Source: a virus | Length of the DNA: 20,600 bases | Strand: one strand, 5' to 3' | Virus record (IMG/VR): IMGVR_UViG_3300025108_000483 | Span: 1-20,600 of that record | In this document: positions 1 through 18,100 of the stretch, one piece after another | Position numbering within the stretch: position 1 is the stretch's first letter | Layout of the letters: each line of letters begins with the position of its first letter | Notes under the pieces: model-generated | What the model saw: the letters and a program-made list of their open reading frames with translations, nothing else | Told to the model about the DNA's origin: nothing | Database searches by the model: none | Program-made: the position numbers and the translations under genes

Positions 1-318
1 GTTCGTCGTACTTTCCTCTATCTTGAGAAGATCACTAAGAAGACAATGCAGTTCTTCCTCTTTGAGAACAATACATTGTTCACTCGTACAAGAGTAGCTA
101 ATACTTTGACACCATTCTTTGAGCGTGTTAAAGCTTCTGATGGCTTGTATGACTTTATGATTGTCTGTGATGAGCGTAACAATACTGGTGAAGTAATTGA
201 CCAGAATGAGCTTGTTGTTGACATTTACTTGAAGCCAGTTCGTACTGCTGAGTTTATTCTCGTCAACTTTTACGCGACTAGAACAGATACAAACTTCGAA
301 GAGCTTGTTGGAAACTAA
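1..318 (+). CDS. 18: Tail sheath protein, C-terminal part (T4 gp18-like), 5' truncated by window
   Basis: The frame is open from base 1 and ends at TAA 316-318, giving the last 105 residues; the start lies before the window. The fragment contains RRTFLYLEKI, MQFFLFENNTLFTRTRV, DGLYDFMIVCDERNNT, VIDQNELVVDIYLKP and AEFILVNFYAT. In that order these match what I remember of the C-terminal domain of T4 gp18 (a helix, then FENN, YDFYVVCDETNNTP, VIDRNEF, KPARSINYITLNF). The sheath polymerises around the tail tube and contracts during infection; this domain makes the inter-subunit beta contacts. It is followed at once by a terminator and, after one intervening gene, by the tube gene, as expected for an 18-19 pair. 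An internal ATG at 46 is not the start because the conserved sequence continues upstream of it. Confidence 0.93.
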   Translation, partial: VRRTFLYLEKITKKTMQFFLFENNTLFTRTRVANTLTPFFERVKASDGLYDFMIVCDERNNTGEVIDQNELVVDIYLKPVRTAEFILVNFYATRTDTNFEELVGN

Positions 319-338
319 ATAGTTTGTCCAAACCAAAT

Positions 339-369
339 AGGAGGGGGTCGAAAGACCTCCTCTTTTTTT
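339..369 (+). terminator. Rho-independent terminator after the sheath gene
   Basis: An 11-bp stem (339-349 with 354-364, two G-U pairs) is closed by a GAAA tetraloop at 350-353 and runs into seven T at 363-369. It lies 20 bases after the sheath stop codon. The core GGTC-GAAA-GACC is the same design as the terminator at 1411-1438. Confidence 0.9.
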
Positions 370-390
370 GTGGAGAAATAGCTACAGTTG

Positions 391-398
391 CATAAATA
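391..398 (+). promoter_or_regulatory. T4-type late promoter (CATAAATA)
   Basis: CATAAATA differs from the T4 late consensus TATAAATA only at the first base. It sits between the sheath terminator and the ATG at 404, with 5 bases between motif and start codon. There is no Shine-Dalgarno sequence before the ATG, so by T4 spacing (motif about -13 to -6) the transcript would begin at or next to the ATG. Confidence 0.75.
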
Positions 399-403
399 AT
401 GGT

Positions 404-1384
404 ATGGCCCAACATAATAATTATGCCAAAGATAGAGACCTTATGATGGAAGCTTATGCCTCTGTTAGTGGTTATGTTCCGAGAACTTCAACTACTGCAT
501 TGCCACGTGGCTACGTTCTCACTGAAGCTCACTGCGATGAAGAAAGTTTAGAATCTGCTGAGCTTGGTGGTGACCTTTATGAAGTAGGTGCACCAGATCC
601 AAGTAATGAAAGCGAGCTTGTCATTTCTATTGTAAAACATGCTAATGGTTACATGATCACAACTGGTCAATTTAGCTCTCCAGAAGACTTTGTAACAAAA
701 GGTCCTGACAGTGCAATTGAAGCTGGTGGATATGCACTTACTCTTGATGGTAAGCTTATGGCGGAAGATGATCTTAAAGATGGTTTAGGTCATGAAGATA
801 ATGAGCGAGCAGAAGGAGCAGCTTATATGGCACCAGAAGGTATGGGGCCGGGTGAAGATGCTGAGCAGCGAGAGGGTGCTACACATAAGTATACTGTTAT
901 TGAAAATGACAAGGAAGGTAGCATTCAACCAATGGAATACAGGCAACCAGAAGGTGATCTTATCAAGACTGTTAAGAGTGGTGGTATGGTTAAGAAGTGT
1001 TATCAGCATCCAGCGGGTCGTGAGTGGGTTGTTGAATCTGATAGACCAATTGATTTTAATCAGGAAGGTAGCTGGACATGGGATGAAGATGCTGAGCAGC
1101 GAGAGGGTGCTACAAATGAGTTTCCTGATGGTGAAGGTAAGTATGAGGTAGCAAGCGTTGGTGGAATGCATGGCCAATCCATAATGAGAGGTAAGAAGTT
1201 TAACTCTTTGGCAGATGCATGTGCCCATGCTGGTTGTGATCTGAGTGAAGTTACTTCAGACAAGGATGGGTGGTTCGATATGGAGGGTGATGGTAAAACT
1301 CTTGAGTTTATGGTAGATGAAGATACAGCTATCGTTATGCATAAGAATCTTCCAGCCGAAGACAGCTCTTGCGCTTCCCACTAA
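404..1384 (+). CDS. Unknown acidic protein with repeated EDAEQREGAT joints, between sheath and tube genes
   Basis: A 326-residue acidic protein that I do not recognise. It begins MAQHNNYAKDRDLMMEAYAS. Three regions can be seen: about residues 25-145 (YVLTEAH, LVISIVKHANGYMITTG), about 161-226, and about 238-326 (KYEVASVGG, FNSLADACAHAGCDL, a probable small alpha/beta domain). They are separated by two copies of EDAEQREGAT, at 151-160 and 228-237, encoded by a perfect 31-bp direct repeat. I chose ATG 404 because the frame extends upstream only through a TTG at 368 inside the terminator, and because 404 lies exactly 5 bases after the late-promoter motif, as at other genes here. There is no signal peptide or membrane segment. 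The gene has its own promoter and its own terminator, so it reads as an insulated late unit inserted between gp18 and gp19. A virion or head-associated role is possible but is inference only. Confidence 0.8.
   Translation: MAQHNNYAKDRDLMMEAYASVSGYVPRTSTTALPRGYVLTEAHCDEESLESAELGGDLYEVGAPDPSNESELVISIVKHANGYMITTGQFSSPEDFVTKGPDSAIEAGGYALTLDGKLMAEDDLKDGLGHEDNERAEGAAYMAPEGMGPGEDAEQREGATHKYTVIENDKEGSIQPMEYRQPEGDLIKTVKSGGMVKKCYQHPAGREWVVESDRPIDFNQEGSWTWDEDAEQREGATNEFPDGEGKYEVASVGGMHGQSIMRGKKFNSLADACAHAGCDLSEVTSDKDGWFDMEGDGKTLEFMVDEDTAIVMHKNLPAEDSSCASH
853..883 (+). repeat. 31-bp direct repeat, copy 1
   Basis: This is identical over 31 bases to 1084-1114 and encodes EDAEQREGAT in frame. The first 18 bases (TGAAGATGCTGAGCAGCG) recur a third time at 13560-13577 in a different gene, again in the same reading frame. 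Confidence 0.95.
1084..1114 (+). repeat. 31-bp direct repeat, copy 2
   Basis: Perfect copy of 853-883, 231 bases downstream in the same frame, so the two encoded peptides are exactly 77 residues apart. The flanking sequence is not repeated. Confidence 0.95.
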
Positions 1385-1410
1385 TCTACATTAAAATATA
1401 ACTTTTTACA

Positions 1411-1438
1411 AGAGAAGGTCGCAAGACCTTCTCTTTTT
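1411..1438 (+). terminator. Rho-independent terminator before the tail tube gene
   Basis: A perfect 10-bp stem (1411-1420 with 1425-1434) with a GCAA tetraloop is followed by a short T run (1434-1438). It lies 26 bases after the stop codon at 1384 and just before the late promoter of the tube gene. Confidence 0.92.
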
Positions 1439-1450
1439 AAGTGCTCTAGA

Positions 1451-1458
1451 CATAAATA
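1451..1458 (+). promoter_or_regulatory. T4-type late promoter (CATAAATA) for the tail tube gene
   Basis: CATAAATAAT is the same ten-base string as at 391-400. Here 8 bases separate the motif from ATG 1467, so the predicted leader is only about 3 bases. No Shine-Dalgarno sequence is present. Confidence 0.75.
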
Positions 1459-1466
1459 ATAGTACA

Positions 1467-2006
1467 ATGCCAGTATCACAAAATATTCAAAACTTCTACC
1501 GTACCGCAGCTGATAAAGACTTCAGCCGTGATTTTCTTTTCCGTGTGACTCAGATGCAGTTGCAAGGTGTACCTGCTCTTAGTGAAAGTGATCTTATCTA
1601 TGTTAAGGCTGCTTCACTTCCAGGACGTAACATTGGTAACGTTGCTGTACCCTATATGGGTCTTAGCTTAAACGTTCCAGGTGCTGTAACTTATCCAGGA
1701 TCTGAAGCTTATCAACTTAGCTTCTACCTTGATGGTGAAAGCTCACTTCGTAACTTCTTTGAAACTGCTTCACGTGCACTCTTTAACGATGAGTCCTCTA
1801 CCGGTGAGTATGGTACACCTGATGATGATTTCTACATTCAGCTTGCTCAGCTTGATAAAGACCTTGAGCCTATCACCGAATATAAGCTAGTAGGAGCTTC
1901 CCTTCGTAATGTAAATCCAATCTCATATACGATTGCTGGTGGTACAGGTGCTACAGTTAGCGTTGATTGTACTATTTCTTACCACTTCTACACAAAAGAG
2001 CGTTAA
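1467..2006 (+). CDS. 19: Tail tube protein (T4 gp19-like)
   Basis: A 179-residue protein, close to the 163 residues of T4 gp19. It forms the stacked hexameric rings of the inner tail tube through which DNA passes. Diagnostic stretches are NFYRTAADKDFSRDFLFRVT near the N-terminus, VKAASLPGRNIGNVAVPYMG at about 51-70 (the tube-family LPA/LPG...IPV segment), LNVPGAVTYPG, and a C-terminal beta strand VSVDCTISYHFY. The gene follows its own terminator and late promoter, as expected for a high-copy structural protein. It is the first gene of a nine-gene tail block read on the plus strand. The ATG at 1467 is the only plausible start, near the promoter. Confidence 0.9.
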   Translation: MPVSQNIQNFYRTAADKDFSRDFLFRVTQMQLQGVPALSESDLIYVKAASLPGRNIGNVAVPYMGLSLNVPGAVTYPGSEAYQLSFYLDGESSLRNFFETASRALFNDESSTGEYGTPDDDFYIQLAQLDKDLEPITEYKLVGASLRNVNPISYTIAGGTGATVSVDCTISYHFYTKER

Positions 2007-2011
2007 TTTAA

Positions 2012-2737
2012 ATGCCTAATGCTATTCGAAAGCGTCTTCGTCTACACCAAGACTGGACAAACGACATCCCTCTCAAGAACATTTGGGGGATTAACTTCTC
2101 AGCTCGTACTGGCAGTGGAGCGATGGTTAATGTCGGTGACGCTATTGAATATTTCTTAGACATATATAGACCTAACACCTATAAGGTTGATAACGACCTT
2201 TTCGATAGAGTATCTGACTTTGATTCTGGCTTTCTTCTCGCACAAGATGTAAAAATGCCAGGATTAACTCTTAAAACAGATGAACAAAGTATACCAGGTT
2301 CTGGTGGTATGCCAGCTATGCAATATTCAAATCGTATAGCTGAGAATCATAAAATGACAATATCATTTCTTGAGACTAATAGAGATGTATTTTCTTTCTT
2401 TATACAGCCTTGGATTGTTGCTTGCTCATATGCTGGTTTGATCGAAGATGATAACGAACCGGATATTAAATGTAATATTGATGTTATACAATACTCTCGT
2501 ACAGCTGAGAAATATGGTGATAAACTTGGTGAGTCAAATAAACGTCGGCGTAGAAATGATTCAGTAGAGTATGGTATTCGTAAGATGCATACATTCTACG
2601 ATTGTGTACCTTATCAATATGATGGTGATAGGTTTAGTTACGGTAAACAGTCCTTATCTGACATAACACGAACCGTAGGCTGGAACTTTGCGCACTATCA
2701 ATTAAATACTCCAAGAGGAGTGTTAAATGGAATTTAG
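2012..2737 (+). CDS. Second tail-tube-fold protein, probable baseplate tube initiator (gp54-like?)
   Basis: A 241-residue protein starting 5 bases after the tube gene stop. The segment LAQDVKMPGLTLKTDEQSIP followed by MTISFLETNRDVFSFFIQPW resembles the tube-protein pattern (a VK..LPG strand, then a strand and helix beginning F...). A basic insertion SNKRRRRNDS lies near residues 176-185. T4 uses gp48 and gp54, both tube-like, to start tube polymerisation on the baseplate; this protein is shorter than T4 gp54 (320 residues), so the assignment rests on fold-like pattern and position. There is only a weak AAGAG 12 bases before the ATG, so it is probably co-transcribed and translated with gp19. 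Another tail completion or adaptor protein is possible. Confidence 0.6.
   Translation: MPNAIRKRLRLHQDWTNDIPLKNIWGINFSARTGSGAMVNVGDAIEYFLDIYRPNTYKVDNDLFDRVSDFDSGFLLAQDVKMPGLTLKTDEQSIPGSGGMPAMQYSNRIAENHKMTISFLETNRDVFSFFIQPWIVACSYAGLIEDDNEPDIKCNIDVIQYSRTAEKYGDKLGESNKRRRRNDSVEYGIRKMHTFYDCVPYQYDGDRFSYGKQSLSDITRTVGWNFAHYQLNTPRGVLNGI
2701..2708 (+). promoter_or_regulatory. Possible internal late promoter (ATTAAATA)
   Basis: ATTAAATA lies inside the end of the preceding gene, 18 bases before ATG 2727. This is the longer spacing expected for a transcript with a normal leader, and it is the one gene here with a good Shine-Dalgarno sequence. The motif is short and within coding sequence, so it could be chance. 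Confidence 0.4.
2714..2720 (+). promoter_or_regulatory. Shine-Dalgarno sequence (AGAGGAG) of the 2727 gene
   Basis: AGAGGAG ends 6 bases before ATG 2727. It is the only convincing ribosome binding site I found in the window, and it belongs to a gene whose start overlaps the preceding gene by 11 bases. Confidence 0.8.
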
Positions 2738-3536
2738 TATTGAAGTAAACTTACCATCAGGTAAGAGAGTTAGAGTTAAGGAGCTTAATAATGAAGAGTA
2801 TCTCGCTATTATTAAATTTGCGCAGAATAAAGACTTTAGAGGTCTTGGTGCGTTCCTTGATAATCTCTACATAAGACCAGATTTAAATATAGTTGATAGA
2901 ATATATCTTCTCATTTATATGAGAATGACATTTATCGAGCCAGATATTAACTTATCTATTAAAGAAAATTCAGTAGCAGTTAGTGTTGCGTCGATGCTAG
3001 ATAAGATTGAAGAGAGTTATGTTGACTTAGAGACAAATATATCTATAAATGGTATCGAGATTACATTAGATCTACCATGTATAACATATTATGAGAATAT
3101 AGATGAGCTACTCATTTCTACTATCAAGCATATTCAGATAGGTAATGACTCTATTGACTATAATGAACTAGATGATGAAGTCCAGGCAGAGGTATTGAGT
3201 AATCTACCTGCATCTGTATTTGAGTACGTTAACAAGTTTCTAGAAACTATACAAGAGAACTTACTAAATGTTGATCTTATTGAAAGTAACGATAGTATTG
3301 GGCTAGAGTCGACACGTATTAATCTATTGGCAAATAATGTGCTAGAGTTTATATCGAGCCTTTATGGTACAGATTTAGAAGGCTTCTATTCAATGATCTA
3401 TTCTTTCCAGAATACTATTATGCCTGGTAGTAATTATTTCTTTAAGATGTCACCTATTGAGTCACGTATTATAATGAACACTCATAGTAACAGAGTTAAA
3501 GAAGAGAATGACCGGTTGCAAAAGCAGCAACAGTAA
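2727..3536 (+). CDS. Baseplate hub/assembly protein (T4 gp26/gp51-type)
   Basis: A 269-residue acidic protein overlapping the preceding gene by 11 bases. It opens with a beta hairpin and helix, EFSIEVNLPSGKRVRVKELNNEEYLAIIKF, in the style of the T4 gp26/gp51 group (SGK..R.K......EYL..LK). It has a second beta pair near residues 100-115 (ISINGIEITLDLP), LPASVFEYVNKFL near 160, and a helical C-terminus ending in Gln-rich REN-type sequence. The next gene has the same overall plan, which suggests the two are paralogues. In T4, gp26 and gp51 act in assembly of the central baseplate hub, upstream of the tape measure gene 29; the order here agrees. The family call is from pattern and position, not from a strong motif. 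Confidence 0.6.
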   Translation: MEFSIEVNLPSGKRVRVKELNNEEYLAIIKFAQNKDFRGLGAFLDNLYIRPDLNIVDRIYLLIYMRMTFIEPDINLSIKENSVAVSVASMLDKIEESYVDLETNISINGIEITLDLPCITYYENIDELLISTIKHIQIGNDSIDYNELDDEVQAEVLSNLPASVFEYVNKFLETIQENLLNVDLIESNDSIGLESTRINLLANNVLEFISSLYGTDLEGFYSMIYSFQNTIMPGSNYFFKMSPIESRIIMNTHSNRVKEENDRLQKQQQ

Positions 3537-3543
3537 TTAAATA
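3536..3543 (+). promoter_or_regulatory. T4-type late promoter (ATTAAATA)
   Basis: ATTAAATA begins on the last base of the upstream stop codon (TAA 3534-3536) and ends 5 bases before ATG 3549. No Shine-Dalgarno sequence precedes the start. Confidence 0.72.
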
Positions 3544-3548
3544 ACTGT

Positions 3549-4289
3549 ATGAGTTCAACCGCTAGAAGCTTTCTAAACAAGCTTAAGGATATTAATGAGT
3601 CAAATACCGTTAACGTAAAAGTACCTTCCACAGGTGAAAAAGTAGATTTTAGGCTTATTAGTGTAAGTCAACAGAAAGCTCTCCTTCGTACAGCTTTTGA
3701 TGGAGTTGATGGTGTTATAGACAGAGCAGTAATAACGAATAAAATTATTAAAGATAATTCAACTATTGAAGATGAATTTCTAATTGTTGATAAGCCGGCT
3801 ATTTTCATCGCTCTTCGCAAAGAGTCTCTTGGCTCAAAGATTAAGATTAAGGATGAGGAGTATGACCTTGATAATGTAACACCGCTTGATAAGGCTGATG
3901 TAAAGCTTAAGCATACAATCGTGTTTGATGATATTAAGGTTAACTTGAAAGTACCTACCCTTACTATTGATAGTGAAGTAGCAGCGAAGCTTGCAAAGGA
4001 GATTGCCAAGGTACAAGGTACTGATGATAAAATTAAGCAGGGTATTGACACTGTTATATCACATGAATCTTGTAAGTATATCGATAAGGTATCAGTTGGT
4101 GAAGATGTTATTGAATTTGCTACAATTAGTGTACACGAGAGAGTAGATATTGTTAATAACCTACCACTATCACTAAACAATGAGATCGTTACTTATATTG
4201 GTAGTATTAAAACGGCCACAGATAAAGCTCTGACTGTGGCTGAGGAAGTAGTTGTAGAAATTGATGCAAGCTTCCTATCTGGTGATTAA
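3549..4289 (+). CDS. 26: Baseplate hub protein (T4 gp26-like)
   Basis: A 246-residue protein. The N-terminal pattern is NTVNVKVPSTGEKVDFRLIS followed by a helix beginning SVSQQKALLR, like the cyanophage/T4 gp26 pattern (LPSTG..V.FRP....EEK.LL). Near residues 95-135 lies a four-strand segment with LKHTIVFDDIKVNLKVPT, and near the C-terminus LPLSLNNEIVTYI. It shares its plan with the preceding gene (hairpin, helix, central beta segment, LP.S....V..). It probably works in assembly of the baseplate hub with the tape measure encoded next. Its own late promoter overlaps the stop of the gene before it, and its own stop lies inside the promoter of the gene after it. Confidence 0.65.
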   Translation: MSSTARSFLNKLKDINESNTVNVKVPSTGEKVDFRLISVSQQKALLRTAFDGVDGVIDRAVITNKIIKDNSTIEDEFLIVDKPAIFIALRKESLGSKIKIKDEEYDLDNVTPLDKADVKLKHTIVFDDIKVNLKVPTLTIDSEVAAKLAKEIAKVQGTDDKIKQGIDTVISHESCKYIDKVSVGEDVIEFATISVHERVDIVNNLPLSLNNEIVTYIGSIKTATDKALTVAEEVVVEIDASFLSGD

Positions 4290-4292
4290 ATA
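4285..4292 (+). promoter_or_regulatory. T4-type late promoter (ATTAAATA) for the tape measure gene
   Basis: The upstream stop codon (TAA 4287-4289) lies inside the ATTAAATA motif. The motif ends 5 bases before the GTG at 4298. The flanking 15-base string CTGGTGATTAAATAA recurs at 13680-13694 (promoter of the 13699 gene). Confidence 0.75.
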
Positions 4293-4297
4293 ATAAT

Positions 4298-5974
4298 GTG
4301 GCTGAAGACTCTACTAACCCATTTGCCAGTATATTAGGCGCTCTTTCTAGTAAGAAGGGCGATAAAGGCGTGAGGAAAGATAGCGACGTTAAAGTAAAAG
4401 CTCAATTAGTTCCAGCTGAAGTAGCTCGTTACGAGAGAATCTTCAGTATAATGAAGGAAGTGGTACACCCTGATCCTGAGGTGGGGAAGTTAGAAGAGGA
4501 TAAGGAAAAAAACGCCATGTCTGGTATGAACGGCGTGTTGAAGAGCTTAGGTATTGATAGTGGTTCAGGTGGAATAGGTAAATATACAGCTCTTTTAGGT
4601 GCTGGTCTGGCGGCTACAGCTTTAGCTTTCATGACCGATAAGGAGAAATTGTTAACAATGGCCTTTAAAGTAGCTAAGTTTCTTCCTATTAAGCTGCTTA
4701 AAGGTCTTCCTCTTGTTGGATCTCTTTTAAACTTTGGATTTGCTTATCAAGCATTTCAAGAGGATAAACCTTTAAAAGGAGTATGGGAGCTGACTTCCGG
4801 AATAGCTGGTCTCGTACCAGGAATTGGTACAGCTATATCAATTGGTATGGACATGATTATGTATATGTTCGAACAAAAAGAGGCGGAAGAGGCGGCGAAA
4901 GGTAAGAAAATAGACTTTAAAACATGGTTGGCAGACTGTGCCTCAAATATGGGGATGACTATCTTTAATAACATTAAGGATGGCAAGGTTCCTCTTTTAA
5001 GTGGGTTCTGGATGTTTGGTGAAGGTCTTGGCCATTTTTTGATTGCAGACTGGGACAAAGGACTTGAATGTTGGGAAAAGATTCTACCTGCTTTCTTAGG
5101 TCAAGCTAGTGATGAAGATAGACAGAGTTTCTGGGATGGTGTTAATGCTATGAACCAATTGACAGCAGATGGTGCTGAGATTGCTTATGAGAAAGCAAGC
5201 ACTTGGACTGGCGATGCTTGGAGCTTTGTTACAGCGTTCTTTACTGATGTAGGAGTGTCGATCCAAGGTTGGTTTAATGGTGTTATGGATTGGTTTGATA
5301 AGACACTTGACGAAGGCAAGAAGCAAATTAATCAGTTCACTAGCGATCTTTTTGGAAAGGAAATATTTGAACTCGAAAGTGAAAAGAACTTAACGAGTGA
5401 GACGAGTGCCGAGCGCAACTCAAGGGAGGCCCGCATCCGCGCCGAGATGGATGAGCAAGCAGCTGCTAATAAAATGTTCGGTTCGGAAAAAATGACAAAA
5501 GCTGAGTGGGATGCGATTATGAAACCTATTGATGCTGATGGTAGTGAGCTTTCTGGTGACGAACTCAATGCCTGGCGAAAGAGGAGGTCGGAAGCTTTTG
5601 CTGAAAACTTAAGTAAGTACAGAGCAGAAATGAAAAAGAGGGGTGATGCTTGGACAGCTGGTCAACTGGCTGGTAAATCAAATACAGAGATGGGCTATGG
5701 GGAACCACAAGCTGTCAAAGATGGTATTGTTCATCAGAATGGTAGGGCAACTCGTATTGATAGTGAAGATAGTGGAATCTTTGCTAAGCCAGGTGGTCCA
5801 ATCGACAAGATGCTTGATCAAAACTCTGCTGTTATGAAGACTATTCAGAGTATCAACGCTCAACAACTTAACGTATTAGTAGAGATTCGTAACGGAATCA
5901 ACGCCCTAAAGAGTAGTGGTGGTGGAGAATTAACCTTTGCTAGTGCAAATTTAACCCAAGAATTTTTTGAATAA
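4298..5974 (+). CDS. 29: Tail tape measure protein (T4 gp29-like)
   Basis: A 558-residue protein, close to T4 gp29 (590). Tape measure proteins set tail length and fill the tube lumen. Visible features: a charged N-terminus; three hydrophobic helical segments at about 92-112, 118-150 and 163-190 (LLGAGLAATALAFM, LPLVGSLLNFGFAYQAF, GIAGLVPGIGTAISIG); Trp-rich helices at 280-340; charged helices at 365-460; and a C-terminal motif at about 473-505 (VKDGIVHQNGRATRIDSEDS, then GGPI) of the kind found near the end of many tape measure and tail length proteins. The start is GTG: the ATG two bases earlier is in another frame and stops after 13 codons, while GTG is exactly 5 bases from the promoter motif. 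The stop TAA shares a base with the next ATG. Confidence 0.85.
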   Translation: MAEDSTNPFASILGALSSKKGDKGVRKDSDVKVKAQLVPAEVARYERIFSIMKEVVHPDPEVGKLEEDKEKNAMSGMNGVLKSLGIDSGSGGIGKYTALLGAGLAATALAFMTDKEKLLTMAFKVAKFLPIKLLKGLPLVGSLLNFGFAYQAFQEDKPLKGVWELTSGIAGLVPGIGTAISIGMDMIMYMFEQKEAEEAAKGKKIDFKTWLADCASNMGMTIFNNIKDGKVPLLSGFWMFGEGLGHFLIADWDKGLECWEKILPAFLGQASDEDRQSFWDGVNAMNQLTADGAEIAYEKASTWTGDAWSFVTAFFTDVGVSIQGWFNGVMDWFDKTLDEGKKQINQFTSDLFGKEIFELESEKNLTSETSAERNSREARIRAEMDEQAAANKMFGSEKMTKAEWDAIMKPIDADGSELSGDELNAWRKRRSEAFAENLSKYRAEMKKRGDAWTAGQLAGKSNTEMGYGEPQAVKDGIVHQNGRATRIDSEDSGIFAKPGGPIDKMLDQNSAVMKTIQSINAQQLNVLVEIRNGINALKSSGGGELTFASANLTQEFFE

Positions 5975-7185
5975 TGAGCACAGTATTAGTTAACACGACC
6001 GGTGGGTCTACATTTCAGGGCGGGACTTCAATAGCTGATTTTGGTGTAGATAATTCTGCTATTAAAGAATTAGGCCTTGAACTAAACGATGCAGATAAGA
6101 GACCAATACTCAAGCCAACTAGACAGGTAATCGATGTAGTTAATGACTTTAGTTGGTATGCTGGTCCTAAAGCCTCTCCTAAGGCTCTTAATAGAGTACC
6201 TTGCTGCTTTCTTACTGAGAGAGAGCAGCTACTTAGCTCTGTAATTGCTGGTAGTATTTACTATCTAAATGCTGGAGGGCAGTTTACAAAGGGTGTTTTG
6301 GAGAGTAAGTTTGTAACATCTCTATTGGGTAAGGCAGCAGAAAATACTGCTACTGATTCTGTTATTGGTGGAACAGCCAAATTCCTTGGCTCTGCAATTG
6401 ATGCTATTCAAAGTATTGCTGGTTCAGAGTTGGATAGAGGGCTTCTCACTCAACATAATCTTAATTCGTTACACGGTATCTACTACACCAAGCCAACAGA
6501 CTTTAAATATAGACTACCGCTTTATGCAGCACCTGAAGGGGAGTTGAGTGAAGGGTTCGGGACAAATAACGCTGGTCAGGTAGGTGAGATAGCTGGAAAG
6601 GTTATTAACAAAATAACTGATGTAGCTGAAATGATGGCTAAAGGTGTTAACTTTAGCCAGCCAGGAGTATATATTGAAAAACCACAATACTTTCAAGGTG
6701 CAGGTGGTAGATCAGAGACAGTGAAGTTTCCTTTATCTAATACAGTTAGACGTGGTACAGCATCTCCAATTCAACAGAACTATGAACTCTTATGGCTATT
6801 GGCATTTCAGAATAGACCGTATAAGACTACATTTGCAAGAACACCTCCACCAAAGCTATATACAGTTACTGTACCAGGCCACTTCTCTATGCCATATGCT
6901 TACATTGATAATATGTCTGTTGAGTTTGTGGGTACAGTTAGAAAGTCATACGTATATGTACCGTCCGGTGGTAGTGGTGAAGGAGCATTAACAGCTAAAA
7001 AGATTAAGACTGATGTACCTGAAGCATATCAAGTATCATTAACATTTAAATCCCTTCTCGGTGAGTACGGTAATACTATGGTTTCAAATGCGTTTAATAC
7101 ATCTTTTGATGATAACAAAGTATCGGTAGGGGACGCTCCTAACGAAGCGGATTTGCAGTTCAATAACGTCGAATCAGGCTTTTAG
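5974..7185 (+). CDS. 48: Baseplate tail-tube cap protein (T4 gp48-like)
   Basis: A 403-residue protein (T4 gp48 has 364). It directly follows the tape measure gene with a TAATG overlap, the same place that gp48 holds after gp29 in T4. The C-terminal part (about 305-380), with PPPKLYTVTVPGHFSMPYAY, IDNMSVEFVG and AYQVSLTFKSLLGEYGNTM, has the alternating-strand pattern of a tube-fold domain. The N-terminal part has LNRVPCCFLTEREQLL and Ala/Gly-rich helices that may contact the tape measure protein. gp48 with gp54 caps the hub and nucleates the tube. The 2012-2737 gene is the other candidate for one of these two roles, and which is gp48 or gp54 cannot be settled by eye. Confidence 0.62.
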   Translation: MSTVLVNTTGGSTFQGGTSIADFGVDNSAIKELGLELNDADKRPILKPTRQVIDVVNDFSWYAGPKASPKALNRVPCCFLTEREQLLSSVIAGSIYYLNAGGQFTKGVLESKFVTSLLGKAAENTATDSVIGGTAKFLGSAIDAIQSIAGSELDRGLLTQHNLNSLHGIYYTKPTDFKYRLPLYAAPEGELSEGFGTNNAGQVGEIAGKVINKITDVAEMMAKGVNFSQPGVYIEKPQYFQGAGGRSETVKFPLSNTVRRGTASPIQQNYELLWLLAFQNRPYKTTFARTPPPKLYTVTVPGHFSMPYAYIDNMSVEFVGTVRKSYVYVPSGGSGEGALTAKKIKTDVPEAYQVSLTFKSLLGEYGNTMVSNAFNTSFDDNKVSVGDAPNEADLQFNNVESGF

Positions 7186-11388: not shown

Positions 11389-12315
11389 ATGGTAGAATTC
11401 GATAAGATCTGGGTAGAAAAGTATAGGCCATCTAAGTTAGATGATCTTATTCTTGATGAAGGCTCTCTTAGAGTTGTTAGTCAGTTCAAGGATGAGATTC
11501 CTAACTTGCTATTCGTAGGAAGTCCTGGTACTGGTAAGACTACTCTTGCTCGTATCATTGTTAATGATATTCTTGGATGTAACTTCCTATACATTAACGC
11601 TTCTGATGAGTCTGGTATTGATGTTATTCGTCATAACATTACTAACTTCGCTCAGACTAAGTCCTTTGATGGTGGTATTAAAGTAGTAGTTCTAGATGAG
11701 GCTGATGGACTCACCCCTCAGGCACAGGCTGCACTACGCAATACTATGGAGACGTACGCTAAGTACTGTCGCTTTATTCTTACTGCTAACTATAAGCATA
11801 AGATTATTCCAGCTCTTCAGTCAAGGTGTCAATCAATCGATCTTAAACCTGAGATCAAACAAGCAGCTAAACGTTGCTTTAACATATTAAAACAAGAAAA
11901 CGTAAACGTAAGTGATGAACAGAAAATTAAATTTGGTCAGTTGGTTAAAAGAACATTCCCTGACCTCCGAAAAACTATCAACGAGCTCCAAAAGTCGGTT
12001 GTTGATGGGGAGTTGTATATTGATAGCAGCGGGAGTGACAGTGAACTTCTTAAGGCAGTCACGCAAGGACTCAAAGAAGACTCGATTAAGGTAAGAAAGT
12101 ATCTTATCGAGAACGAAGATAGGTTTCAAGGAGACTATGATACTCTTCTTGCTAACTTGTTAGACTATCTTTATGAGCAGCCTATTGACGAGTTCAAGAA
12201 GAAGCAGATGATTACTGTCATTGCTGATCACCTCTATAAGAGCGCGTTCGTCGTTGACAAAGAAATTAATGCTTTTGCTTGTATTGTTGCTTTAGAATTA
12301 GCTCTTAAGGCATAA
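11389..12315 (+). CDS. 44: Sliding-clamp loader ATPase subunit (T4 gp44-like)
   Basis: A 308-residue AAA+ ATPase (T4 gp44 has 319). It starts VEKYRPSKLDDLI, a clamp-loader signature. Walker A is GSPGTGKTT (44-52), Walker B VVVLDEAD (99-106), sensor 1 ILTAN (130-134), and SRC (145-147) supplies the trans-acting arginine finger. The C-terminal region, about 210-308, is the helical collar domain. With gp62 it loads the gp45 sliding clamp onto primer-template DNA. In T4 the loaded clamp also activates late promoters, so this gene links replication to the late motifs seen here. The gp62 gene, usually directly downstream, is not present in the window. The stop TAA lies inside the next late promoter. 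Confidence 0.96.
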   Translation: MVEFDKIWVEKYRPSKLDDLILDEGSLRVVSQFKDEIPNLLFVGSPGTGKTTLARIIVNDILGCNFLYINASDESGIDVIRHNITNFAQTKSFDGGIKVVVLDEADGLTPQAQAALRNTMETYAKYCRFILTANYKHKIIPALQSRCQSIDLKPEIKQAAKRCFNILKQENVNVSDEQKIKFGQLVKRTFPDLRKTINELQKSVVDGELYIDSSGSDSELLKAVTQGLKEDSIKVRKYLIENEDRFQGDYDTLLANLLDYLYEQPIDEFKKKQMITVIADHLYKSAFVVDKEINAFACIVALELALKA

Positions 12316-12318
12316 ATA
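12311..12318 (+). promoter_or_regulatory. T4-type late promoter (CATAAATA) overlapping the gp44 stop codon
   Basis: The TAA stop of the clamp-loader gene (12313-12315) is part of CATAAATA. The motif ends 5 bases before ATG 12324. A nearer ATG at 12320 is in another frame. Confidence 0.75.
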
Positions 12319-12323
12319 TATGC

Positions 12324-13355
12324 ATGAAGTTTAACGACTCCTTCGATAAATACATGAGCCTCTATAATGAGGCTAAGGAAGCTCCTAAGGGTAAGCATTA
12401 CGATAAAGCTGGTAGACTTCAGTCTGGTGATGCAGATGCTGATGGTCGTGGAGGTCCTAAGTTTCGTTCCGATCCTACTTATGTAAATCCCAATGAGGAT
12501 GGAGAAAGTAGAGAGTTCTTCTTTGGTTATGATATTGAAAATGTTCATCCCGTTGAAGAGTTTGTAAAAGCAAATTACAAAGAGGGTGAGTATGAAATGT
12601 CTACTGGTTACGGTGATGATGTAATGAATCACTTTAAAGTTAATGTTGATCTCGATGATGAGAGAGGTAAGAAACTTTTAGACATGATTGAAGATTGTGA
12701 TGGTGAGGGTAATTACGATGAGGATGATTACGATGAGGATAACGAGACTGCTAAGAATATTGGTAAGGGAGCGTTAAAGCTTGCTGGTAAGACTCTTAAA
12801 GGAGCCGCAAAGTTGGCTGGTAAAGGTGCACTTGAGGTTGCTCATTTTGCAACAGATGATGTATATAGGAGTAAAAAATCATCTAAGGAAGATTGCGAAT
12901 CTTGTGGCTGTTCTGATGAAGAGGCAAGAGAAGATTGCGAAACATGTGGTTGTGAAGAGAATCCAGAGTATGGTCACTTAGATGATACTTACTCTAACTA
13001 CATTGATCAGTACGAGCCTAAAGACGAGTCTAAAGAGGATTGTGAGTCTTGTGGATGTGAAGATGCTGAAGCTGGTTGTGAATGTGGCAATTGTCCAGAC
13101 TGCACACCTAAAGAGGATGCTGAGAGGATCGATAAAGATCGTATGAAGTGTAACTCACCTAAGCGTGGTGGTAGTAAGAAGTTTGTTGTTAAGGCTTGTG
13201 AGAATGGTAAAGAGAAAATTGTGCGCTTTGGAGATCCAAACATGAGAATCAAGAAGAGCAATCCTAAAGCTCGTAAGTCTTTCCGTGCACGTCATAAGTG
13301 TGATCAGAAGAAGAGTAAGTTCTCTGCTGGTTACTGGAGCTGTAAGAAATGGTAA
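12324..13355 (+). CDS. Cys-cluster protein with C-terminal Lys/Cys module (marine T4-like phage type)
   Basis: A 343-residue protein of unknown function. In order: an N-terminal amphipathic segment MKFNDSFDKYMSLYNEAKEA; an Asp/Gly-rich stretch (KGKHYDKAGRLQSGDADADG); a small alpha/beta domain at about 70-125; an acidic run (NYDEDDYDEDNE); a Gly/Ala/Lys repeat helix (about 150-172); a Cys cluster at 191-260; and a basic module at about 276-343 with KFVVKACENGKEKIVRFG, DPNMRIKKSNPKARKSFRARH and WSCKKW. I recognise that last module as recurring in hypothetical structural proteins of marine T4-like phages. There are 18 Cys in all, 13 of them in the cluster. EDAER (264-268) stands just before the basic module. 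The start is fixed by the 5-base promoter spacing. A head-internal or metal-binding role is possible but unproven. Confidence 0.8.
   Translation: MKFNDSFDKYMSLYNEAKEAPKGKHYDKAGRLQSGDADADGRGGPKFRSDPTYVNPNEDGESREFFFGYDIENVHPVEEFVKANYKEGEYEMSTGYGDDVMNHFKVNVDLDDERGKKLLDMIEDCDGEGNYDEDDYDEDNETAKNIGKGALKLAGKTLKGAAKLAGKGALEVAHFATDDVYRSKKSSKEDCESCGCSDEEAREDCETCGCEENPEYGHLDDTYSNYIDQYEPKDESKEDCESCGCEDAEAGCECGNCPDCTPKEDAERIDKDRMKCNSPKRGGSKKFVVKACENGKEKIVRFGDPNMRIKKSNPKARKSFRARHKCDQKKSKFSAGYWSCKKW
12888..13103 (+). repeat. Three diverged copies of an EDCESCGC-coding repeat plus a CxCxxCxxC tail
   Basis: The repeats encode EDCESCGC (189-196), EDCETCGC (203-210) and EDCESCGC (238-245), followed by CECGNCPDC (252-260). 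The DNA copies have diverged at third positions (GAAGATTGC against GAGGATTGT), so the peptide rather than the DNA is being kept. Confidence 0.85.
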
Positions 13356-13685: not shown

Positions 13686-13693
13686 ATTAAATA
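13686..13693 (+). promoter_or_regulatory. T4-type late promoter (ATTAAATA)
   Basis: ATTAAATA ends 5 bases before ATG 13699, within a 20-base block (13683-13702) identical to the minus-strand promoter/start of the small terminase gene. It lies in the 33-base gap after the stop at 13665. No Shine-Dalgarno sequence is present. Confidence 0.8.
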
Positions 13694-13698
13694 AGTGT

Positions 13699-15096
13699 AT
13701 GGTCAAAACACTTAATACTGAGTTTCCAGTAGAGCATTGTAATGATAACGTTAATATCATCTATGTTGAGTCGCTTAATAATGTCTATAAAGACCTCTAC
13801 CATGCTACTACTAATGGTGAGAAGTCAGTATTAAAGGCAATTGAGGTTGGAGATGACTTTATTGTAGCAAGTATAAGCCTTACTGTTGAAGGTGAGACTA
13901 CTAAACAGTTAGTAAGAGTTGAAGAGGGTGCTAACCCAAAAGTGTATTTAAATGATAGCCTTTATAGTGTCATTGAAGAGTCTAAGAAGGCAGCAGAGTT
14001 AAAGGTTATTGAAGAGGAGAAAGCTGCTAAGAAAGCAAAGACAGAAGCTGTTACAAATCTTATTGTAGGTGCTCTTGATGAGCAAGTCAAAGCTGTTCAA
14101 GCAAAAGCTAAATTAGACTTTAATAAGGTTGTTGAAGAGAGTAAGAAGAGAGTTAAGGCAGCTAAGAAGAAGCCAGTAGCTGTAAAGAAAGAGGTTCAAC
14201 AAAAAGAGGAGGTTGTTGTTGAGCAGGCTAAACAAGAGCTTGAGAAGGTTGAAGATAAGATTACTGAAACAAGTAAGTATATTCAGCATCAGGTTATGGA
14301 AGATTATGCGCCTGAGAAAGGTGATAAGAGCTTCCAGAGTGATATGAAGGCTCTTAAGTCTGAGTTAGAAGCTAAGATTAACAATCTCTTTGATAATCAG
14401 ACAAGAGACATTCGCAAGATTGCTGAGATGTCTTCTGGTGGTGGTGGTAATGAATCACGCTCTATTCAGAATACTGCTGACATCGCTACATTGAGTGCCG
14501 ATGTTGGTGCTTTTGAGAATGTTACAGTAAGTCAACGTGAGCAGTTTCAAGGTTATATAGCTCTCCTCACACCAGTATACTTTGGTGGTAGTGCTACTAC
14601 TTTTGACATTCCACTTTCTGGTGTTAATCAGTTCCTCGATATTGAATTGGAAGTTGATCCAGCAGGAGAGTTTGATTACCGTGTTACTTCAATGACAGAA
14701 GCTACTGGACTATCTGGTGGCTATACTGGAACAGGTGCTGATGGAGATCCAATCATCTTCTTACTCGAAGGTCTTGAACTAACATCTTCAGCTGATGTAC
14801 GTGTATCAATGAGTTTTAACCCAGATGATGATGGTGGTCGTCTTGATAGTAGACTTAACTTCTTCCGACACTCAGGTACAACTCCTTCAGATAACTTCCA
14901 TATTGAAGCTTCTTCAATTGCAATGGAATCAGGTGCTGAAGAGGATTATGCCTACACTCCTGATATTAAGTTCTTCATCGGTGATACAATCGATACTAAC
15001 GCTCCTGGAGATGCTGGCAGAGTATGCTTTCAGATCAAATCAGATGTACCAGGTACAGTCACAATCAATGAAATAGCAATGTTCATTCAGAAATAA
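13699..15096 (+). CDS. Coiled-coil plus beta-domain virion protein, candidate fibre or whisker component
   Basis: A 465-residue protein of unknown function. Residues 1-92 form a small beta-rich N-terminal domain (VNIIYVESL, KVYLNDSLYSVIEES). About 93-245 is a long Lys/Glu/Ala helix with coiled-coil character (AAELKVIEEEKAAKKAK, VEQAKQELEKVEDKITE). A glycine linker (SSGGGGN, 245-251) is followed by a short trimer-like segment (QNTADIATLSADVGAFENVT, resembling fibritin-type heptads). About 285-465 is a beta-rich C-terminal domain (YFGGSATTFDIPLSG, FLDIELEVD, RVSMSFNPDDDGG, ending TVTINEIAMFIQK). The layout N-domain, coiled coil, beta tip is usual for trimeric phage fibres. The giant fibre gene follows after 45 bases, so the pair may form one appendage. 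No specific family is recognised. Confidence 0.72.
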   Translation: MVKTLNTEFPVEHCNDNVNIIYVESLNNVYKDLYHATTNGEKSVLKAIEVGDDFIVASISLTVEGETTKQLVRVEEGANPKVYLNDSLYSVIEESKKAAELKVIEEEKAAKKAKTEAVTNLIVGALDEQVKAVQAKAKLDFNKVVEESKKRVKAAKKKPVAVKKEVQQKEEVVVEQAKQELEKVEDKITETSKYIQHQVMEDYAPEKGDKSFQSDMKALKSELEAKINNLFDNQTRDIRKIAEMSSGGGGNESRSIQNTADIATLSADVGAFENVTVSQREQFQGYIALLTPVYFGGSATTFDIPLSGVNQFLDIELEVDPAGEFDYRVTSMTEATGLSGGYTGTGADGDPIIFLLEGLELTSSADVRVSMSFNPDDDGGRLDSRLNFFRHSGTTPSDNFHIEASSIAMESGAEEDYAYTPDIKFFIGDTIDTNAPGDAGRVCFQIKSDVPGTVTINEIAMFIQK

Positions 15097-15141: not shown

Positions 15142-18100
15142 ATGGGACAAATAAGAATATTCTCCGATACAAAGTCAGGTAAAGTTACCTTTGATGGGTC
15201 AACTATTACTGACAAGGAAATTGGATCAGTTGAAGCAGCAGCACACCCCACTCAATCAGATCGTATCATTATTAGATCAACACGTATCTTTAAACGTGGT
15301 TCTACTACTGAATACAGAGTCTTTTTGAAGCGCTTGAATGCTAACCGTGTTCAGAACGAAGCAGGTCAGACATTGACTGATGCTCCTACTCTATTCACAA
15401 GAGATCAGGTTGTTGATTACTTGAACGAGCAGATGTCAACTCCAATCATTACTGAATACTTTGAATACAATCCAACTACTGATAGACTTGTTGCTCAGAG
15501 AGATGTTCAGGTTGATAAGAATGGTTTCTTCTTAGGTGAAAAGCATAAGATGGCTTCTGGTGGTTCTAACATCTACTTCGAAGATCTTGATAATAGTGCT
15601 AACTCATATCCTATATTCGGTGAAGTTCTTGACCAATCTCTTTCAGCTAACCAACAGCCAGGTGAGGGTGTTACACTTCCAAAGAGTCGTATTTTCCAAG
15701 ACTTTAACCCAGTTCCACTCGGTGGTAATCCTGTTGATGATACTGCTATTGATTACGATGGTGATAACTTCTTCCCATTCAATATTAGTGGTCAGGGTAT
15801 TACTACAAGAGCAGGTGAAGCTCTTCTTGCTACACAGCAGTTGAAGTATGAGATTATTGTTAATGGTATTTCTGTTTATGTTCAGTACCTCCAGCCAGGT
15901 GCTTTAGCAATCAACGACCCTATTACATGGTACTTTGATCAGCCACTCGACATTGAAGCAGGTACAACTCTTCGTGCTACAATCTATAAAGTATCTATTG
16001 TTAATAACCAGGAAGTTATTGATGGTATCTTTAAGGTTAACGAAGGTGACGCTGTTCCAACTCGTTACCAGACTCAAGTGCTTGCTCGTCTCTTTACTGA
16101 TAAGCAAATTGCTCTTAAAGAGGATGTTGATCAGCTATTGAATGGTTCTATCTACAAAGGCTCTTATGATGCTACTGGTACTGGTACACCTGCACTTCCA
16201 ACTGGTACTGATGTACTTGGTGACTTCTATCGTGTTACCACTCCTAATGCTTTGAGTGGTTATAATACAGGTGACATTCTTGTATATAACGGTACTGATT
16301 ATGATCACGTTGCTGAGTCAAGTGCTACACAATCAGACATTAAGAACTCTGCTCTTCGTGTATACGACATTTACGTCAAGGCTGGTTATTCTGGTAGTGT
16401 TAAAGATGGCTCAGTACTCTACCCATATGATAGCATTGAGACAGCAGTTGCTTCTGCTAATGATGGTGATCAGATCTATCTAGAAGGTACATTTGAAATC
16501 TCTGGCGAGATTGAAATTCCTTCAACTTTGTCATTGTTCTTCTATGGTGCTGATGATGCTGTTATTTCTTATACATCTTATGATGCTGCAAATGCTAACT
16601 TGATTAAGTTTACAGGTACAGACAATACTAAAGAGTTTAAGTTTGTAAACATTACATTCAAGAATGCTGGTGAGTATGGAATGAAGATCCAGAAAGCTGC
16701 TAAGATTGAGATTAACGACTGCGTATTTACAAACAATGGTTGGAATGGTACAGCTCTTAATACTGTACTTCCTTCTACTACTACTGCACTACTTGGTTAT
16801 GATTCTACTGATACAGATCTTCAAGCTTTCTATGCTGGTGCTAATGCTTCTAACGGTGGTGCTATGCGCCTTGAAGAAATTACACAAGTCGTTATTACAG
16901 GTAATACAGTAACAAAGAACCTCAGAGGTATCCGTGTTCAGGATTGTGGTGTTGGTGGTGCTGGTGTTATTACACGTAACCAAGTTACACAGAACATTGA
17001 GTCTGGTATCTACGTTGCAGCTGGTTCTACTCATTCTGGTTCACAGAACATTACAGTAAGCATGAACGTTGTAGCATACAATGCTAACAACGGTCTTCTT
17101 GTAATTGGTGGTCTTAACAATAAGTTCTCCCAGAACGAAGTTAATGGTAACTGGAATGCTGGTGGTTGTTTCTGGGGTGCTGGTAATACTACTCTTCGTG
17201 ATTGTGGTCTTTATGATAACAACAGAAGTGCATTTAACGGTATTGGTAATCCAGGTGATGCTAAAGCATCCATTCAGATTAACGAAATTTATGACTATTT
17301 AGGTGATACTATTTCATTGAACGCAGATGCTCGCTTCATTGCTGAGATTCTTGATACACAAGTTCATTATACTGGTCTTGGTTCTAATACAGAAAAGATT
17401 GGTATCCTCATTACATCTGATGTTGGTGGTCTTGCAGATGATGATAAGAACATTATTAAGGTTGATGATGTTGGCTTTATTGGTCAAGACTATGCTATTG
17501 ACTTGAGTGAGGTTGATGTAACTAACTTGAGACTTTCACTTGGAGATAACTCCTACCAGTCAATTGGTGTTGCTGCTGTTAAGCCGCCATTAGTTGGTAA
17601 CTACAGTGAACTTCCTTTCAGTAACCATGTAATGAGTTGCCCTTCAGTTAATGTTGAAGTTGATACTCTTAATCAATCTGTTAAGTTGAAAGAATATGTA
17701 AGTGGTAATGTTATCAATGTTTATCACATTAACGAGCTTGTTGCTGTAGACAATGGAACAACTGCTGACATTCTTCAGAAAGATTCTGATAAGATTCAGC
17801 TTCGTGGCTTAACTCTTAACAATGTTTATGTTAATGATGTTGTTGCAGGTAATACAGTTACGTCAATGGTTAATACATTGAACTCTGCATTCGCAATGGA
17901 TCTTGTTCAGTATGAAGAATTCCTTACAACTACAGTTGGTGTAGCAAGTGCTGATGATGTGCAAGCATTAACTTTCTACTATATTGAATCTCCAGATGGT
18001 GTATTTACTTACCCATTATTCTCTACTGATACAGAGGCCAATACATTTGACCTTTCAGCTGGAGGAGATGGTTCAAGCATTGGTTATACTTTCCCTGATG

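Follow-up and report, generated by a model that had tools for sequence, protein, structure and literature searches.

Morons of lambdoid phages are, in the classical sense, host-derived genes of odd GC content. T4-type phages are also said to carry promoter-stem-loop (PeSL) cassettes, reportedly described by Arbiol in 2010 and Comeau in 2014. The internal proteins (IPs) of T4 are variable, are recognised by an N-terminal signal and are injected, with Ip1-3 acting as inhibitors of type IV restriction enzymes (PMC12373910). These proteins are basic and have propeptides of 10-19 residues; gp21 cuts after L/I-x-E, with a preference for Leu or Ile at P3 (PMC9026906). Homing beside essential genes and the co-carriage of neighbouring cargo are likewise known (PMC2988022, PMC10448857), and the junction between genes 18 and 19 is not among the twelve free-standing endonuclease sites of T4 (table in PMC2988022).

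The window, which is the whole stretch of DNA analysed here, spans 20.6 kb of a T4-like phage from a virus record, with the C-terminus of the tail sheath at its left edge. The initial annotation described positions 339-1458 as an insulated cassette with a single gene between sheath and tube genes. These coordinates run exactly from the first hairpin through the second late promoter, and the order given there was borne out: sheath stop codon (TAA, 316-318), terminator, late promoter, one open reading frame (hereafter X), terminator, late promoter and tube gene (Table 1). The start of X is most likely the ATG at 404, giving 326 aa, rather than the upstream TTG at 368 given by the ORF finder. Since X has its own predicted promoter and its own predicted terminator, its description as having the layout of a moron is correct. 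Further along, at 1467-2737 and 2727-4289, the window contains two tandem tube-like genes (phrog_45 in both cases) and then a pair of hub-like genes (phrog_150 in both cases), and it also contains an open-ended ORF of 1819 aa (15142-20598) with a right-handed beta-helix match, which is likely a fibre or spike protein.

Table 1. Features of the cassette, its borders and protein Y in the window
Feature	Position	Strand	Basis and remarks
Tail sheath gene (gp18-like), C-terminal end	1..318	+	PF17482 8.6e-13, phrog_23 6e-29; left border of the slot
Hairpin 1, predicted intrinsic terminator of the sheath transcript	339..364	+	11 bp, GAAA loop, -18.7 kcal/mol, folding z -4.0
T4-type late promoter CATAAATA of X	391..398	+	Sequence; 5 nt from the ATG of X
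Gene X (cargo)	404..1384	+	Modular late protein of 326 aa; pI 4.4, net charge about -39
N-terminal tag MAQHNNYAKDRDLMME↓AYASVSG (↓, predicted cut)	404..472	+	Tag HMM; predicted 16-residue capsid-targeting propeptide ending at a gp21-type site
Module A	539..796	+	Alpha/beta domain of ~80 aa; 38 viral loci; AlphaFold pLDDT 87.6 alone
Module B (231 nt, in frame)	850..1135	+	Between 55-nt repeat copies 850-904 and 1081-1135
Module C	1112..1381	+	Last residues PAEDSSCASH; shares 80% aa identity with the C-terminus of the L007 cargo
Hairpin 2, predicted terminator of X	1410..1435	+	11 bp, GCAA loop, -17.6 kcal/mol, folding z -7.0
Late promoter CATAAATA of the tube gene	1451..1458	+	Sequence; promoter also at this place in empty sites
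Tail tube gene (gp19-like)	1467..2006	+	phrog_45 6e-20; right border of the slot
Protein Y, second late modular protein	12324..13355	+	Same ED-x-E joints; module A in its L003 homologue

The two strong GNRA-loop hairpins reported on either side of X were confirmed. Both are followed by T runs, and they are the only tetraloop hairpins of at least 8 bp with a T run in the window, where Markov resamples had a mean of 0.12. A general terminator scan of bases 1-6000 is weaker evidence, with five sites versus 2.8 expected and hairpin 2 absent from its list. The GGTC-loop-GACC hairpin seen as hairpin 1 also occurs at many empty junctions, being near-identical in, for example, L008, L010, L017 and L020. 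Hairpin 2 resembles hairpin 1 in sequence, and a hairpin of the same type lies 3' of the X-like cargo in L009 and L015. The two promoters are identical at 13 of 14 bases. Across the window and related loci, the late box HTAAATA was located exactly 5 nt upstream of the ATG in 85 of 148 box-to-ATG spacings, making this the dominant spacing; examples in the window are 391-404, 3536-3549, 12311-12324 and 13686-13699. In T4 the late box spans -13 to -6 (PMC1524935), which would place the first base of these transcripts at the A of the ATG, so many late mRNAs of this phage group are predicted to be leaderless. Late transcription of the cassette and its termination are likewise predicted from these motifs.

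Related loci were collected through tube-gene searches, which retrieved 42 and then 80, and through matches in 11 long relatives; occupancy was counted over the 78 contigs containing both borders. The sheath and tube genes had been called a normally compact pair, and indeed 58 of the 78 contigs encoded nothing between them, with an empty junction of 15-158 nt that in near relatives consists of one hairpin and one late promoter. The annotated records agree: 16-97 nt separate gp18 and gp19 in four cyanophages, while a fifth, from a Campylobacter phage, was left out because no sheath gene is annotated beside its tube gene. All of the most distant rows were empty, and comparison of this interval among relatives, the check proposed for the moron reading, thus did not find the universal ancestral conservation named as its refutation. 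In a tree of the sheath end and the tube gene, the window falls in a clade of seven contigs (SH-aLRT 100), nested among empty ones, whose slots all hold X, X plus an endonuclease or other late cargo, so that a late non-endonuclease gene is present in all seven. The tree alone does not distinguish gain from loss, but this clade is surrounded by the empty state; the ancestral junction was most likely sheath, terminator, late promoter and tube.

The contents of the filled junctions were diverse. X-like genes occupy the slot in the window, L007, L009 and L015, and were partly seen in L016 and L051. Ala-rich proteins with the same N-terminal tag as X were found in L013 and L022, a short tagged gene followed by a second gene in L177, and that second gene alone in L231. 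In one clade (among L025-L031; L025, L026 and L028-L031), the junction contains baseplate-like genes that run on the opposite strand. GIY-YIG endonucleases above the Pfam cut-off were detected in the slot of L007, L018, L041 and L046, and a weak match below the cut-off in L201. Homing endonucleases of the phrog_3339 type are represented by two genes in L042, by similar ORFs in L216 and L219 and by a truncated one in L217. An endonuclease adjoins an X-like gene in L006/L007. The order in L007 is X, a hairpin belonging to X, a late promoter and then the endonuclease, each of the two genes having its own promoter. In L201/L202 (L201:1361-2183), the endonuclease-like gene lies between copies of a direct repeat of ~44 nt that includes a late promoter and ATG. 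X itself had no endonuclease match in Pfam or PHROG, and the window has no endonuclease.

The tree requires a minimum of five filled/empty changes and of four endonuclease changes. The compared contigs show a slot that was filled several times, with the sheath terminator kept and the late box before the tube gene usually kept, and they attribute about four of the slot changes to homing endonucleases. Read across these loci, the 18-19 junction is an optional-gene slot and an exchange site for accessory genes in an uncultured marine T4-like lineage. Exchange likely proceeded through the hairpin and promoter repeats with endonuclease help: recombination at these repeated sequences, in some cases prompted by endonuclease cleavage and its repair, would allow cargo to be gained, lost or replaced.

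No family match to X was retrieved from Pfam, PHROG, PADLOC or NCBIfam, nor by tblastn in 50,697 phage records, and no sequence match was found between X and phage proteins whose function is known. Searching solved structures by profile gave a single chance-level match (ferredoxin, E 0.59), and Foldseek found no significant PDB match to the whole X model; Sso7d- and cyanovirin-like Foldseek rows were weak and were not accepted as evidence. Although X has a predicted promoter and terminator to itself and separates two genes that adjoin each other in relatives, neither the distinct base composition nor the host origin of a moron was detected for it. Its GC content is only slightly raised (43.6% versus 39.0%, z 1.9) and its GC3 is normal. 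A host origin was rejected, given that one pattern-based scan of bacterial and archaeal genomes detected no relatives of module A and that X is built from modules of late phage proteins; as far as these comparisons reach, X is not visibly host-derived.

The closest relatives of X differ from one part of the protein to the next. The tag is closest to that of L007 (84% aa identity, versus 50% to L009), module A is closest to L009 (86%, versus 58% to L007), and module C is again closest to L007. Module B is missing from L007; the 55-nt in-frame repeat copies at its ends are 85% identical and encode the joint EDAEQREGAT. By these matches, X is a mosaic of interchangeable modules joined at ED-x-E, some of them common to Y and to other phages. 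Module A, whose fold had no significant Foldseek match in the PDB or the viral library, occurs not only in X but also in the Y proteins of other phages (L003/L004) and in many unrelated proteins of marine phages that start with different N-termini; the AlphaFold models of modules B and C were of low confidence. Among 573 late ORFs, ED[AGNCS]E occurred 96 times versus 15 expected in shuffles. The ends of local alignments lay near the ED-x-E joints (median distance 7 versus 26 aa; 47% versus 16% within 5 aa), though these ends are not independent of one another. The possibility that ED-x-E is mere DNA microhomology was weakened, in that the protein motif is maintained despite variation in its codons and in its middle residue. 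Y has seven such joints, a T4-CTS-like N-terminus and a basic C-terminus that is also found in roseophages and pelagiphages.

Other late proteins begin with a version of the N-terminus of X, MAQHNNYAKDRDLMMEAYASV. In X, the putative cleavage site is LMME↓AY, i.e. M-M-E↓A at residue 16, and a helix is predicted at residues 7-19, in a low-confidence region of the model. A profile HMM built from ten such tags retrieved 26 late-promoter proteins that fall into four mutually dissimilar body clusters: X; a family of 54-145 aa mostly ending in KGGN(I/V)EHD; the Ala-rich proteins; and L177. The tag is thus common to otherwise unrelated late proteins, as in T4 IPs. [LIM]-x-E↓[AT] was present in 25 of the 26, with propeptides of 11-17 residues, compared with 14 of 301 other late ORFs (4.7%), a contrast that is descriptive, as the HMM was trained on such tags and the tagged proteins are partly homologous and not independent. 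Several of these 14 were Y- or Z-type proteins. Many tagged relatives have L/I-x-E, and the fit of 25 in 26 requires that Met be allowed at P3, as in X. That unrelated bodies share the tag is not a product of the profile training.

Tagged genes are not confined to the slot. One lies at another locus of the empty-slot phage L088, and tagged genes follow the clamp loader in L088, L063, L003 and L085, whereas no tag match was seen in L081, L082 or L090, whose slots hold cargo. In these few contigs, the pattern is suggestive of a tagged gene having moved from its place behind the clamp loader into the slot. Module A is also found on 'NNFDLKKFLxENKLTxNSR' and 'TEKYRAVxEG' N-termini (L260-L285), which look like further tags shared in other marine phages, and a Flavobacterium phage (immuto) has an N-terminus of the first type. 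A gp21-type protease (PF03420) and gp23 were detected in two long, more distant relatives and had no match in the shorter contigs of near relatives; they are seen only at that distance because the window and the near relatives are fragments.

Taken together, a shared tag ending in a gp21-type site, the known propeptides and cleavage of T4 IPs and the presence of gp21-type protease and gp23 in relatives make it most likely, by analogy, that X works like a T4 internal protein. The mechanism as a whole, a T4 IP-like cargo gene carried by a late moron cassette in a junction that endonucleases visit, appears to us reasonably probable. X would enter the capsid and be injected from it. Residues 1-16 would act as a capsid-targeting propeptide, with the gp21-like protease of the lineage cutting after LMME, and the remainder would be a mosaic of small domains that X and other late proteins exchange at their ED-x-E joints. 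Once delivered into the next host, X may act against host factors, most plausibly those of defence. Its strong acidity, when T4 IPs are basic, and Met at P3 instead of the Leu or Ile preferred by T4 gp21 speak against this reading.

Other roles for X can be envisaged. It may be a late moron product that stays in the cell and is not packaged, such as a superinfection-exclusion or late host-modulating protein, whose tag would be a binding motif for a late phage or host partner. This would suit an optional gene with its own late promoter and terminator, the more so as packaging is something that we infer, but it leaves unexplained why several unrelated late bodies have a common tag ending in a site of the prohead-protease type, and we regard it as unlikely. 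A broader and quite improbable proposal is that X, Y and Z-like late proteins form a shuffled polyprotein system, in which small domains from a common pool are linked by ED-x-E joints that the prohead protease would cut, so that one gene would yield several separate injected effectors, with the 18-19 slot as one loading dock refilled with homing-endonuclease help.

The place of X between sheath and tube, its late timing and the presence of X or other late cargo in seven of seven clade contigs would also be expected of a tail or capsid accessory, for instance a tail-lumen or decoration protein kept beside the sheath and tube as their partner. Yet most relatives that share these sheath and tube genes lack X (the sheath ends are ~90% identical in empty-slot phages), unrelated bodies or endonucleases replace it, and L088 has a tagged relative elsewhere with its slot empty, all of which makes a structural role very unlikely. 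That X is a functionless passenger left behind by a homing endonuclease was suggested by the repeated use of the junction by such enzymes and by the one adjoining an X-like gene in L006/L007. However, the open frame, the promoter and terminator of its own, a dN/dS of about 0.3 to 0.5 in the window comparisons (with dN < dS in every module comparison made) and the late cargo throughout the clade point to selection, and this explanation is highly improbable.

Few phages have had their injected proteins characterised in detail. If X is a T4 IP-like protein, the combination of tag and defined optional slot makes it possible to compile candidate injected proteins from uncultured marine T4-like phages even where they do not resemble known ones. 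A testable picture of diversification is provided by the ED-x-E joints and the exchange of modules between late proteins at different loci, and the slot itself is a case of late-promoter cassettes being gained and replaced within an essential structural operon, at a junction used by homing endonucleases.

Among known systems, the hyperplastic region between g15 and g18 of cyanophages (PMC2984593) also has variable accessory genes within a structural gene module. However, that is a different junction, with metabolic host genes where 18-19 holds late modular proteins and endonucleases. PeSL cassettes of T4-type phages, as they are outlined via PMC4503421, similarly place a stem-loop and a promoter at gene borders as possible recombination seams; in that outline they are early and form dense arrays, whereas both promoters of the window are of the late type and a single junction is involved. 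Like the sites of free-standing homing endonucleases in T4-like phages (seg, mob; PMC2988022) and the HEG islands (PMC10448857), the junction of essential late genes holds GIY-YIG and other endonucleases in several lineages, and neighbouring cargo may be transferable together with them. It differs in not being a T4 site and, in the window copy, in having X without an endonuclease. With lambdoid morons (PMC1524935), the cassette shares the layout of one additional ORF, served by a promoter and a terminator of its own, within an operon that is otherwise compact, as well as a presence/absence polymorphism, whereas the late promoter of the phage family, the modules of late proteins, the near-normal GC content, the T4-like phage background and the lack of a detected host homologue set X apart. 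The closest parallel in function would be IPI, IPII and IPIII of T4 with their capsid targeting sequence (PMC9026906; PMC12373910). X is acidic, multi-domain and located between gp18 and gp19, and we do not file it as a member of the T4 internal proteins, given this acidity, its Met at P3 and a packaging that is a prediction. Nevertheless, it resembles them in a short N-terminal tag on unrelated bodies, a putative E↓A cut site with a hydrophobic P3, a predicted propeptide length within 10-19 residues and genes that are variable and optional.
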